Source: Weissella viridescens
GTDB taxonomy: Bacteria > Bacillota > Bacilli > Lactobacillales > Lactobacillaceae
Reading direction: 5' to 3'
Assembly: GCF_001437355.1 (NCBI RefSeq)
Contig: NZ_JQBM01000005.1
Span: 1 to 64,000, forward strand
DNA: 64,000 nucleotides
Positions 232 through 39,612 of the stretch are shown here, piece by piece. The notes beneath the pieces were generated by a model that saw nothing but the letters and a program-made list of their open reading frames with translations, had not been told where the DNA came from and made no database searches. How positions within the stretch are numbered: the first letter of the stretch is position 1; the number at the start of each line of letters is the position of its first letter. A program made the position numbers and the translations under genes.

Positions 232-265
232 ACAAAAAAAGCTCACACAATAATTGTGTGAGCTT
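232..265 (-). terminator. Intrinsic terminator of the ltaS unit
   Basis: A perfect 12-bp stem (239-250 with 254-265, 3-nt loop) is followed on the minus strand by seven T residues. It lies 7 nt past the ltaS stop codon and separates the lipoteichoic acid genes from the strong promoters further left. Confidence 0.9.
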
Positions 266-271
266 TTTTAT

Positions 272-2422
272 TTATTGACTACTTGAAATAGCTTCTGGAA
301 TTGTTTGTGGTTCCCCACCCAATTCTGGTGCATTCGTCTCATATTCTGGAATCTTACCACCTGTTTTTTGCATTGCTGAGGTTGGCTTTTTCTTCTCCAG
401 ATCCTTCAACGACTTCAAGGTATCATTCTTCTTATATGAATAATTCTTAGGATCGTCTTGCTTATATGAATAATTCTTAGGATCGTCTTGCTTATATCCT
501 GCTAATTTGTGGAATCGTAACAAATCACCCGTTTGGACTTGATCCGAATAAGTCAAACTATCGTTAACATAGTTTTGATCATTATCAATGATCGCCTTAG
601 CGCGTGGATCTTCCTTAGGATTAATTTGTGTTCCAGTTGACGTAACATAGTAGTTACCTCCGTACTTCACGTAATTTTTAGATACAAAATTACCGTTACG
701 GAAAGGCACAACTTGCTTATTATTCTTAGCTAGTAGATCTTGTCCAAATTGAATATTATCGGCTGTTGAAATACCAAGTAGGTGCATCAACGTTGGCATA
801 ACATCAATTTCACCACCATAAGTATGCTTAATACCACCCTTCAATCCAGGTGAGTGAATAATTAACGGTACTTTTTGCCAGTTAGCTAGATCATATGGTG
901 TCACAGAATCTTTACCCATTAACTTAGCAATTGCCTTAGGGTGATTTTCAGAAATACCATAATGATCACCGTATAGCACAATTACCGTATTATCATACAT
1001 TCCTGACTTCTTTAAATATCGCTCAAATTCACCAAAGGCCTGGTCAAGGTAACGGGCTGTTTGAACATAACCATCAACAGTCTTATCACCCGTATCAGTC
1101 TTATTAATTGAGATATTCTTCTTGTCAAGATCGTAAGGGTAGTGGTTTGTAACCGTGATGACCTTTGAATAGAAAGGTTGTGGCAACTGATCAAGGTATT
1201 GAGAGGCATCCTTAAGGAAAATCTTATCCTTCATACCATAACCAATATTGTAGTCATCTTTATTTGCTCCCTTATAGAATGGCTTACTAAAGAAGTAATC
1301 ATAGCCCCAATTCTTATAAGTATTATCACGGTTCCAGAAACTAGCAACATCCCCATGGAAGGCGGCCGTTGTGTAACCACGTTGATCTAACATGTTTGGG
1401 ACAGCTTGGTACGTGTTCGTTGAACCATAATTCACCATGGCAGCTCCAGACGCTAGACCATACAACCCATTTTCAAGCATATTTTCTGCATCGGCCGTCT
1501 TACCTTGACCGACCTGGTTATAAAAATTATCAAAAGAAAGTGAATTTTGATCATGATAGAAACGGTTAATGTTTGGTGTTACCGGTTCTCCATCCACTTT
1601 ATAATCAATCAAGAATTGTTGGAACGACTCCAAATGGAACATCACAACATTCTTTCCCTTAACCGTTCCATAGTATTGTGCATTAGGAATGGTGTTATTA
1701 GATTTAACAAACTTCTCAATCTTTTCAAGGTTTTTAGGCGTCGCCTGTTTTTTGACTTCAGCAGTCTTTTGCGTCTTGTAAATATTGTAAGCTGCATATT
1801 CATTCAAGCCGAGATACTTAACAATGTAGTTATTGTCGAAAGTACGTACCAATAGACCTGAACGATCACTTTCAGAAAGTCCGTACCCTACAAACATAAG
1901 TGCAACACCAAGTAACGTTGTTAATCCTGCCACCCACCGGCGTACCGCATGGCGATTAACATGAATCAACTTAAACGCAATTAATAGCGTTAGCACAATA
2001 ATGTCAGCAAATACTAAGAAATCCGTAGGGTCAATAATACCGCCTAGGGCTTTTCCTAAATTATTTCCAGCTGAACTACCTGAATTAATGATATTAAGCG
2101 ATAGAAAATCCGAGAACTCACGATAGTACAAAATATTTGAAAACAACCAAATTGATTGCACCAAATTCATCAAAAGCATCGTCCAGTATGACGCACGCCC
2201 TTTAAAATACAATCCAATACTCAATAAAATAATTGCCGTCGGAATTGGATTGAAGAATAACAAAAATTCTTGCATCGGCCCTTTAGCCCCAAGACTAAAG
2301 TCATGCTGATAAACCATGTATGTTTTAAGCCAAACAAAGAACACGTTTAACAGGAAGAAGCCCATGGTCGAATTAAATAGATATGCACCGCTCTTTTTGG
2401 CGGTTTGTACAACACGTTCCAT
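272..2422 (-). CDS. ltaS: Lipoteichoic acid synthase, LtaS-type
   Basis: Membrane sulfatase-fold enzyme that polymerises glycerol phosphate from phosphatidylglycerol onto the glycolipid anchor of lipoteichoic acid. Residues ~15-180 hold five hydrophobic segments; the extracellular domain starts near 250 with the metal-ligand region HLES (E265). T309 in GQGKTADAE matches the catalytic Thr of LtaS. The 716-residue length is slightly above the usual ~650 because of a hydrophilic C-terminal tail. That tail contains an exact 10-residue tandem duplication (QDDPKNYSYK, residues 645-664) encoded by a 30-bp direct repeat. The gene is last in a block with two glycolipid glycosyltransferases and a flippase-like protein, which fits an anchor-plus-polymer pathway. 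Confidence 0.93.
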   Translation of the reverse strand: MERVVQTAKKSGAYLFNSTMGFFLLNVFFVWLKTYMVYQHDFSLGAKGPMQEFLLFFNPIPTAIILLSIGLYFKGRASYWTMLLMNLVQSIWLFSNILYYREFSDFLSLNIINSGSSAGNNLGKALGGIIDPTDFLVFADIIVLTLLIAFKLIHVNRHAVRRWVAGLTTLLGVALMFVGYGLSESDRSGLLVRTFDNNYIVKYLGLNEYAAYNIYKTQKTAEVKKQATPKNLEKIEKFVKSNNTIPNAQYYGTVKGKNVVMFHLESFQQFLIDYKVDGEPVTPNINRFYHDQNSLSFDNFYNQVGQGKTADAENMLENGLYGLASGAAMVNYGSTNTYQAVPNMLDQRGYTTAAFHGDVASFWNRDNTYKNWGYDYFFSKPFYKGANKDDYNIGYGMKDKIFLKDASQYLDQLPQPFYSKVITVTNHYPYDLDKKNISINKTDTGDKTVDGYVQTARYLDQAFGEFERYLKKSGMYDNTVIVLYGDHYGISENHPKAIAKLMGKDSVTPYDLANWQKVPLIIHSPGLKGGIKHTYGGEIDVMPTLMHLLGISTADNIQFGQDLLAKNNKQVVPFRNGNFVSKNYVKYGGNYYVTSTGTQINPKEDPRAKAIIDNDQNYVNDSLTYSDQVQTGDLLRFHKLAGYKQDDPKNYSYKQDDPKNYSYKKNDTLKSLKDLEKKKPTSAMQKTGGKIPEYETNAPELGGEPQTIPEAISSSQ
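431..490. repeat. 30-bp exact tandem duplication inside ltaS
   Basis: Two perfect 30-bp units lie head to tail (431-460 and 461-490), and the first 7 bases of a third follow at 491-497. The unit is a multiple of three, so copy-number change keeps the reading frame and adds or removes ten residues of the LtaS tail. The absence of any mismatch suggests a recent duplication. Confidence 0.95.
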
Positions 2423-38783: not shown

Positions 38784-38812
38784 TAATTCCTATTATAACA
38801 AGATTTAGAGTA
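38784..38812 (-). promoter_or_regulatory. Promoter of the yvlD-like-hprK unit
   Basis: Minus-strand -35 TTGGCT, 17-nt spacer and consensus -10 TATAAT precede the YvlD-like gene. It lies just past the terminator of the small RNA gene, showing that the RNA and the protein genes are separate transcription units. Bounds are accurate to a few bases. Confidence 0.75.
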
Positions 38813-38836
38813 TTAGCCAAAATATCTTTATGTATA

Positions 38837-38866
38837 CAAAAAACGCCGATCAATAATCGACGTTTT
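38837..38866 (-). terminator. Terminator of the small RNA
   Basis: Stem AAAACG-CGAT/ATCG-CGTTTT with one mismatched pair and a 5-nt loop, ending in six T residues on the minus strand. Confidence 0.9.
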
Positions 38867-39067
38867 GAGTTTGGCAATGTTAGGAATGACCTGTCCTAAC
38901 GCAGGTGATGGTTACCCATCAGTCAACGTACACCAGTAATTGCTAACTGTTAGTCATGTGCAGATCAACGTGTTCCACAACACGTTTAATCACCTACCAG
39001 CATGCGGCTGTTAATATAGGCCGTTTGTAAAAATCTTCTAAATGAAGATTCTCTCGACTCATCGCAT
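38837..39067 (-). ncRNA. Free-standing structured small RNA, ~230 nt (6S-RNA candidate)
   Basis: The transcript is bounded by a strong promoter (39074-39102) and an intrinsic terminator (38837-38866), with no open reading frame. It contains at least five perfect hairpins: AATCTTC/GAAGATT; an 8-bp AACGTGTT/AACACGTT stem with a GUGG loop; GATGG/CCATC with a GUAA loop; GTTAGGA/TCCTAAC; and a long-range AGGTGAT/ATCACCT pairing. A short GAGT/ACTC closing stem joins the ends. Size, autonomy and position suit 6S RNA or the related Lacto-usp class, but I do not recognise a diagnostic sequence. It is not tmRNA, RNase P or SRP RNA. Confidence 0.72.
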
Positions 39068-39073
39068 GTAATA

Positions 39074-39102
39074 AATATAACATAACTACGGTTGGCTTGC
39101 AA
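39074..39102 (-). promoter_or_regulatory. Promoter of the small RNA
   Basis: -35 TTGCAA (39097-39102), 17-nt spacer, -10 TATATT (39074-39079) on the minus strand. It places the 5' end near 39067. The 155 bp between here and the divergent gene at 39259 hold only AT-rich sequence. Confidence 0.8.
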
Positions 39103-39258: not shown

Positions 39259-39612
39259 ATGAAAGTTATCGGTAACACTTTGGAAAATATTCATAAATTT
39301 CGCCACGAAAACATTCGCGACAAACGTTCTGGAATATTACCCACAAAATCTTCAGTAGTGAAGAATCCCTACGCTCAATTAAGCTTACTCTATTTAGATA
39401 CCAATGACACGTACTATCTAGTTGACGCTTCCAGTGCGATAGCCCACTCATTGCAATACAATGACGGTGCAATTGTTATTAGCGCTTGGCATGCAACCGA
39501 TATTATCGGTTTAAAACAAAGCTACAACCAACCTGGCTTTGACAATTATTTCCAAATGTTAGTTCAGAATACAGCTGAAGCCTATGCTGCTGAACACCAG
39601 ACGGAAAACTAA
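39259..39612 (+). CDS. Hypothetical protein, 117 residues
   Basis: Not recognised. It is one of only four genes on the plus strand. The protein is soluble with no signal or membrane segment; the middle (YAQLSLLYLDTNDTYYLVDA, then AIVISAWHATDI) looks like beta strands and the ends like helices. GAGG lies 9 nt before the ATG and a bidirectional terminator follows the stop, so the transcription unit is complete. It diverges from the small RNA gene. It may be a conserved lineage-specific protein. Confidence 0.7.
   Translation: MKVIGNTLENIHKFRHENIRDKRSGILPTKSSVVKNPYAQLSLLYLDTNDTYYLVDASSAIAHSLQYNDGAIVISAWHATDIIGLKQSYNQPGFDNYFQMLVQNTAEAYAAEHQTEN

Follow-up and report, generated by a model that had tools for sequence, protein, structure and literature searches.

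Within the window, by which is meant the whole 64,000-nucleotide stretch of Weissella viridescens DNA that was analysed, a gene for a structured RNA of ~230 nt is predicted on the minus strand (39067→38838). An autonomous structured RNA gene had been proposed at this place in a preliminary description of the stretch, and both its position and its autonomy held: every element lies on the minus strand, the gene has its own promoter and terminator, and covariation spans nearly its full length. The predicted transcript (38838..39067, 230 nt) would start at the A of the 5′-end motif AUGCGAUGAGUCGAG, as suggested by promoter spacing; this A, at 39067 and 6 nt past the −10 element, is position 1 in the numbering used below. 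The limits of the transcript are consistent with the terminator and with the match to R1, a full-length model built from Weissella copies alone, which scored 228.4 bits at 38838-39067 with the copy from this locus itself included in the model.

The promoter (39074..39102, minus strand) is of the σ70 type, with a −35 element TTGCAA (39102-39097), a 17-nt spacer and a TG preceding the −10 element TATATT (39079-39074). With 9 of 12 consensus matches, the "consensus promoter" described previously is present but is near consensus rather than at it. Its spacing is conserved in the genus copies, and promoters with at least 9 of 12 matches were found in 21 of 28 of these, a level reached by 3.6% of base-shuffled upstream sequences. 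At the other end of the gene, the intrinsic terminator noted earlier was confirmed from the sequence as a hairpin with a U-run (38866-38838, minus strand), in which 8 of 11 pairs have changed on both sides. A consensus terminator scanner listed 0 terminators at the locus; we think that it missed this one on account of base pairing between the U-run and an A-run.

Folding of the minus-strand transcript gave −73.7 kcal/mol with a z-score of −4.29, and 0 of 200 shuffles folded equally well. The plus strand also folds well (z-score of −3.19), as reverse complements do. Only on the minus strand is the terminator correctly oriented, and only there are the promoter and both named loops, GUGG and GUAA, found. 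The next gene on the same strand matches PF04020 and is the yvlD of the preliminary description; a promoter-like site of its own, with 10 of 12 matches, lies at 38820..38792. On the other side, a divergently placed gene of 117 aa (39259-39612, plus strand) gave no Pfam match; a gene of similar size and the same orientation occupies the equivalent place in close relatives (e.g. L037, L044 and L045), the sequences not having been fully compared.

Secondary structure and covariation

Covariance analysis across Weissella was performed on an alignment (A1) of 24 distinct full-length copies from the genus and revealed strong covariation. Three copies identical to L032 (L033-L035) were left out of A1, as was L038, which comes from a 66%-complete genome (G253), diverges past ~172 nt and is without the pseudoknot described below, features that could reflect either degeneration of the copy or faulty assembly. 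Unguided RNAalifold analysis of A1 recovered the closing helices GCG/UGC and GUCGA/UUGAC, P2, P3, P4, P6, the second stem of the pseudoknot and the terminator, and the first pseudoknot stem was added by eye before all 60 pairs were counted. Across these pairs, 95.7% of cells were paired compared with 79.2% in shuffles, double changes occurred in 35 of the 60 pairs, and 232 double-change cells were counted compared with 63 in shuffles. None of 500 shuffles was as high on any of five measures, and the signal was lost when partners were slid. A second alignment (A2) comprised 63 loci, with L070, L093, L095, L097, L100 and others left out. It was fitted to the model, so that its counts lean towards structure, and the count keeps a few short spurious matches (the second rows of L071 and L085 and short rows of L026 and L069).

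From the 5′ end, hairpin P1 (39029..39053, minus strand, as for all elements that follow) folds in 24/24 copies. Hairpin P2 (38992..39021) consists of an outer helix (39021-39016/38997-38992) and an inner CAGC/GCUG helix, with 8 of its 10 pairs changed on both sides. Hairpin P3 (38963..38991) carries an invariant UU-GUGG-AA apical loop (38980-38973) that by register would be the counterpart of the MarS target-binding site discussed below. P4 (UGCAC/GUGUA, 38929..38962), the pairs of which are mostly invariant, encloses AUGACUA and hairpin P5, which folds in 24/24 copies and is weak in some. In hairpin P6 (38906..38921), 100% of cells are paired and 5 of 6 pairs have changed on both sides. The two loops named in the preliminary description were both located, GUGG at 38978-38975 in P3 and GUAA at 38915-38912 in P6.

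Two helices would close the RNA. In H1, the UGC of UGCCAAA (38870..38876) is paired with GCG at 39065-39063, and in H2, UUGAC (38922..38926) is paired with GUCGA (39058-39054). Because both consist mainly of invariant pairs, with G-U/G-C changes in addition, H1 and H2 are less certain than the other elements. A long-range 7-bp pairing had also been described, its strands not being specified. A real 7-bp pairing exists, GUUAGGA/UCCUAAC, and is the second stem of the pseudoknot; the long 9-bp helix of the single-sequence minimum-energy fold (38997-38989/38909-38901) is not conserved and was rejected, since 56.5% of its cells are paired, a level that shuffled sequences also reach.

The H-type pseudoknot (38879..38905) is formed by S1, CCUG (38905-38902) with CAGG (38893-38890), interlocked with S2, GUUAGG (38900-38895) with CCUAAC (38884-38879), the S2 helix extending to GUUAGGA/UCCUAAC. 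Its loops of 1 and 3 nt give the classical H-type geometry, and the sequence of both stems varies among copies while pairing is kept. The pseudoknot rule was satisfied by 33 of 34 sequences, comprising 24 from Weissella and 9 of 10 others (three Periweissella, Convivina, Oenococcus, a Leuconostocaceae bacterium, two MAGs and two further family members), compared with 18 of 1360 dinucleotide shuffles. The sole sequence that failed, L072, has by eye a three-pair S1.

The distribution of this domain was examined in a pattern scan of named genomes. It gave 101 stretches, and the analysis covered the 80 that were listed; two of the stretches, L138 (Pseudomonas) and L155 (Lentibacillus), are apparently fortuitous. 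Scores of at least 68 bits to R1 were obtained for 12 of the 80 listed loci, all from Weissella, Periweissella, Convivina, Oenococcus, a Leuconostocaceae bacterium or Lactobacillaceae MAGs, and the next score among the 80 was 49.8, for Furfurilactobacillus siliginis. Among 127 other copies, 7 passed a strict pseudoknot rule and 24 had the GCCAA anchor; a looser rule with many anchors was passed by 47 of the 127 and is unspecific. The strict-rule passers were all five Furfurilactobacillus copies (L151, L172, L180, L190 and L194, representing two sequence types) plus L147 and L207, the last two of which look like chance matches. In Furfurilactobacillus, the pseudoknot is followed by ACGCCAAAC, as in Weissella, and judging from these sequences the 3′ domain is probably genuine there; other lactobacilli are without it. 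These copies rule out a pseudoknot confined to the Weissella–Oenococcus group. The 3′ domain is thus a property of Weissella, its neighbours and Furfurilactobacillus, a part of the Lactobacillaceae.

Family membership and the 5′ motif

A search of the whole 64-kb window at Rfam gathering scores yielded a single match, RF02840, at this locus (38970..39066, minus strand). The score was 58.5 bits against a cut-off of 44, and the model was matched completely (1-124). RF02840 is named Ref68, Enterococcus sRNA 68 or Lacto-3 RNA, and the Ref68 traits are evident at the locus: the 5′ UGCGAUGAGUCGA is present, and the P2 and P3 helices covary. The locus is therefore a member of a known family that was not recognized as such in the preliminary description, where a new lineage-specific sRNA had been considered. 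The core belongs to the order-wide Ref68 family; lineage restriction does apply to the ~100-nt 3′ part, which lies outside the RF02840 model and covaries strongly in the 24 distinct genus copies. In a survey of the genus, RF02840 was found once per genome in 28/28 genomes, in 26 of them above the cut-off.

A second model, asd/MarS (RF01732), gave 17.9 bits at the locus (E 0.47) and did not reach its cut-off of 84, with a 5′ end identical to that of the Ref68 alignment. In a sample of 246 Lactobacillales genomes, RF02840 was matched in 119, RF01732 in 53 and one or the other in 144; neither was matched in the remaining 102. Wherever both models matched (28/28 genomes), they did so at the same place, on the same strand and in the same register, the asd start falling exactly one base upstream of the Ref68 start. 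The genome of Lactococcus lactis, included as a control, was also matched by both models. Given this coincidence, Ref68 and asd/MarS were taken as a single family, although the two share no Rfam clan, and MarS appears to be its streptococcal form. R1 also recovered 5 of the 6 streptococcus-type loci supplied to it (E 2.6e-9 to 0.009). When 299 genomes were sampled at class level, with an unstated share from other orders, the 8 hits obtained all fell within Lactobacillales. The distribution of MarS/asd across lactic acid bacteria has already been published (PMC5613026; table in PMC2864571); a published link between Ref68 and MarS/asd was not found in a search of the open-licence literature. The analysis contributes the joining of Ref68 and MarS as one family, which corrects their separate listing, and a well-supported pseudoknot domain that is missing from the Rfam model.

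Sequence conservation in the family is highest in the 5′ motif (39053..39067, minus strand) and the P3 loop. UGCGA, at positions 2-6, was kept in 106/106 loci read (L001-L106), a count biased in favour of the motif because these loci were found with motif-containing models. Of these, 91 came from a table selected by motif pattern; the other 15, overlooked or wrongly placed by that pattern, were read on their own. Elsewhere in the motif, position 7 is U or C, position 12 is C or U, and position 9 is G in two loci. Position 11 is U in most loci, and among the 15 read separately it is G in 8 and C in 5. A co-variation inside the motif was also observed: C at base 15 goes with UU (20/20) or GC (8/8) at bases 11-12 and never with UC (0/71) or CC (0/5). 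The P3 loop UUGUGGAA is invariant in 24/24 Weissella copies, and asd-type copies read UGUGUGAACC. In the asd-type copies L059-L062, an SD-like AAGGAGGUC is present in P2, the region at which an initiation peak has been reported for srf-17 by ribosome profiling (PMC9426450).

Possible function and comparison with known systems

The RNA at this locus is the Weissella copy of one order-wide Ref68 and asd/MarS family, and on balance the reading favoured is that of a free RNA that acts in trans, most likely by antisense pairing through its P3 loop, with the 5′ end as a second surface and the 3′ domain contributing to folding. Transcription in this strain from its own promoter to its own terminator would release a free RNA, which by analogy may be a trans-acting regulator. 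The conserved apical loop of P3, GUUGUGGAAC, is the predicted recognition site for antisense pairing on mRNAs, as for MarS of Streptococcus pyogenes, and the conserved 5′ end, AUGCGAUGAG, is a putative second interaction surface for protein or RNA. The ~100-nt 3′ domain (P4/P5, P6, the H-type pseudoknot and UGCC) would fold the RNA into a closed body in which the 5′ end is paired back onto the 3′ side.

For S. pyogenes MarS, an 88-CC-89 change has been reported to abolish binding to the mga leader in gel shifts, and MarS deletion to lower mga expression (PMC5613026). In asd-type genomes, the CC of UGUGUGAACC, just 3′ of the P3 loop, was found at 88-89 in 6 of 9 distinct genomes, at 85-86 in two and at 96-97 in one. 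The 9 genomes correspond to 12 rows, three of which are further pieces of genomes already counted; they were taken as streptococci on the basis that they pass the asd cut-off or belong to the same genus as those passing. On this register, the pairing site tested in MarS would lie at the loop of P3, and P3 is the most conserved hairpin in the family. Because Mga is a regulator of streptococci, the known MarS target would not account for conservation across the order. The GUGG loop is also short and tightly closed and so is not an ideal seed, which counts against P3-loop pairing. As for the 5′ motif, a search of the genome with its complement gave the gene itself as the sole exact site and 18 one-mismatch sites, none of them convincing. 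Three of the 18 lie near a possible start codon, and a backward control pattern gave 10 sites compared with 19.

An appreciably less probable reading, though one to be taken seriously, is that the RNA is mainly protein-binding or of a housekeeping type, an RNP scaffold or a protein-sequestering RNA, with MarS antisense pairing as a streptococcal side line. The compact covarying fold with its closed ends and pseudoknot, the single copy in each genome having the RNA, and the invariance of the unpaired bases of the 5′ end and of the P3 loop are consistent with such a role. The presence of U, G or C at position 11 of the 5′ motif points the same way, since it misfits pairing with one constant RNA partner. 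Against this, MarS is reported to bind an mRNA leader and to lose binding through a two-base change beside the conserved P3 loop (PMC5613026), and no protein partner is among the results of the present analysis. More speculative, and rather unlikely, is a reading in which Ref68/MarS is one ancient Lactobacillales RNA with an ancestral role other than virulence. Here the Weissella-type pseudoknot domain would capture the conserved 5′ end (GCG/UGC and GUCGA/UUGAC) and so serve as a gate, covering or uncovering the interaction surface by a change of conformation, and the sRNA would be self-regulating.

Action in cis, as a leader of the downstream PF04020 (yvlD-like) gene, is highly improbable. 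That gene is on the same strand and starts 300 nt past the first base of the RNA, and PMC5613026 mentions an earlier prediction that the asd motif acts in cis, an entry marked "?" in the original table (PMC2864571). However, a terminator intervenes, the PF04020 gene has a separate promoter-like site, and MarS is reported to be transcribed independently of its neighbours (PMC5613026). Neighbouring genes differ between groups, which counts against cis action in general, and regulation of a conserved neighbour was rejected; of the 71 named loci for which 700 nt of sequence upstream could be examined, just 17 have a gene for an LRID-motif protein there. The LRID-motif protein, of ~150 aa, is encoded just upstream of the RNA in L002 and L010, among others; the hosts of the 17 loci are Lentilactobacillus, Paucilactobacillus and one Liquorilactobacillus, and no Pfam match was obtained for the protein in the two pieces searched.

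An mRNA for a small protein, or a dual-function RNA, is similarly very doubtful. In 9 of 24 copies (considering the two longest frames per copy), a frame beginning MSR... starts from the AUG at position 6, and a ribosome-profiling peak is reported for the pneumococcal homologue srf-17 (PMC9426450). Yet the frames span 21-39 codons, their sequences differ past the motif and none is kept in all copies, and substitutions follow the paired helices. A small ORF common to all copies was accordingly rejected, and the earlier statement that the gene contains no reading frame was borne out in that no open frame is conserved among the 24 copies.

The identity first suggested, 6S RNA, is barely credible: its size, its own promoter and terminator and an apparently open slot (no RF00013 match in the genome at E 0.001) are all that recommend it, whereas the locus matches neither RF00013 nor RF01710, its fold is branched and pseudoknotted instead of a rod with a central bubble, and its synteny is wrong: 6S candidates of Weissella have been described downstream of rarA (PMC8414754), and a weak full-length 6S match occurs at that place, on contig C2. 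The Lacto-usp identity (RF01710), without a match at the gathering score in the window or at E 1 at the locus, was likewise rejected by score, shape and place.

The rarA-side candidate (L240; G000:C2:436300-438300, 246-435, plus strand) scored 19.5 bits to RF00013 against a cut-off of 46.4 and spans the whole model. Inspected by eye, it is flanked by a TATAAT-like box and a terminator-like hairpin, beyond which come first one reading frame and then another that is usp-like. The single rarA (PF12002) match is at C2:435969-436466, and the locus studied here is on C5, so the two are different genes. L240 is likely a non-canonical Weissella 6S RNA; transcribed, non-canonical 6S candidates have been reported downstream of rarA in Weissella by a study that cites public RNA-seq data for W. 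confusa and W. koreensis (PMC8414754).

Among the streptococcal members, the S. pyogenes transcript is reported as 161 nt by RACE, with a main blot band at ~80 nt instead of full length (PMC3542284). This counts against the favoured reading, as do the low asd score at the locus and the 102 Lactobacillales genomes matched by neither model. The asd motif is present in the pneumococcal member, srf-17/F38 (PMC6212727, PMC9426450), and the F38 mutant is reported not to have been recovered from the nasopharynx (PMC3395615). Expression of the group B streptococcus member falls in late stationary phase and under low pH (PMC4448216). MarS, studied in group A streptococcus as a regulator of virulence, seems to represent the form that this RNA takes in streptococci, with lactobacilli and Weissella keeping it as well. 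Its basic function is therefore open to study in harmless laboratory lactic acid bacteria, with the pseudoknot domain as a natural variant for comparison.

Compared with Ref68/Lacto-3, the locus matches the whole model, that is, the 5′ motif, P1, P2 and P3 with its GUGG loop; the difference is that the Rfam model stops in P3 at 124 positions, whereas the locus adds a ~100-nt 3′ domain of P4-P6 and the pseudoknot. With the streptococcal asd/MarS/srf-17/F38 RNAs (RF01732), it shares the 5′ motif AUGCGAUGAGUCGA, P2, P3 with a UGUG loop and, as reported for MarS (PMC5613026), its own promoter and terminator. It differs in that the above-cut-off asd matches are 136-171 nt long and in its P3 loop, which reads UUGUGGAAC at this locus in place of the asd-type sequence given above.
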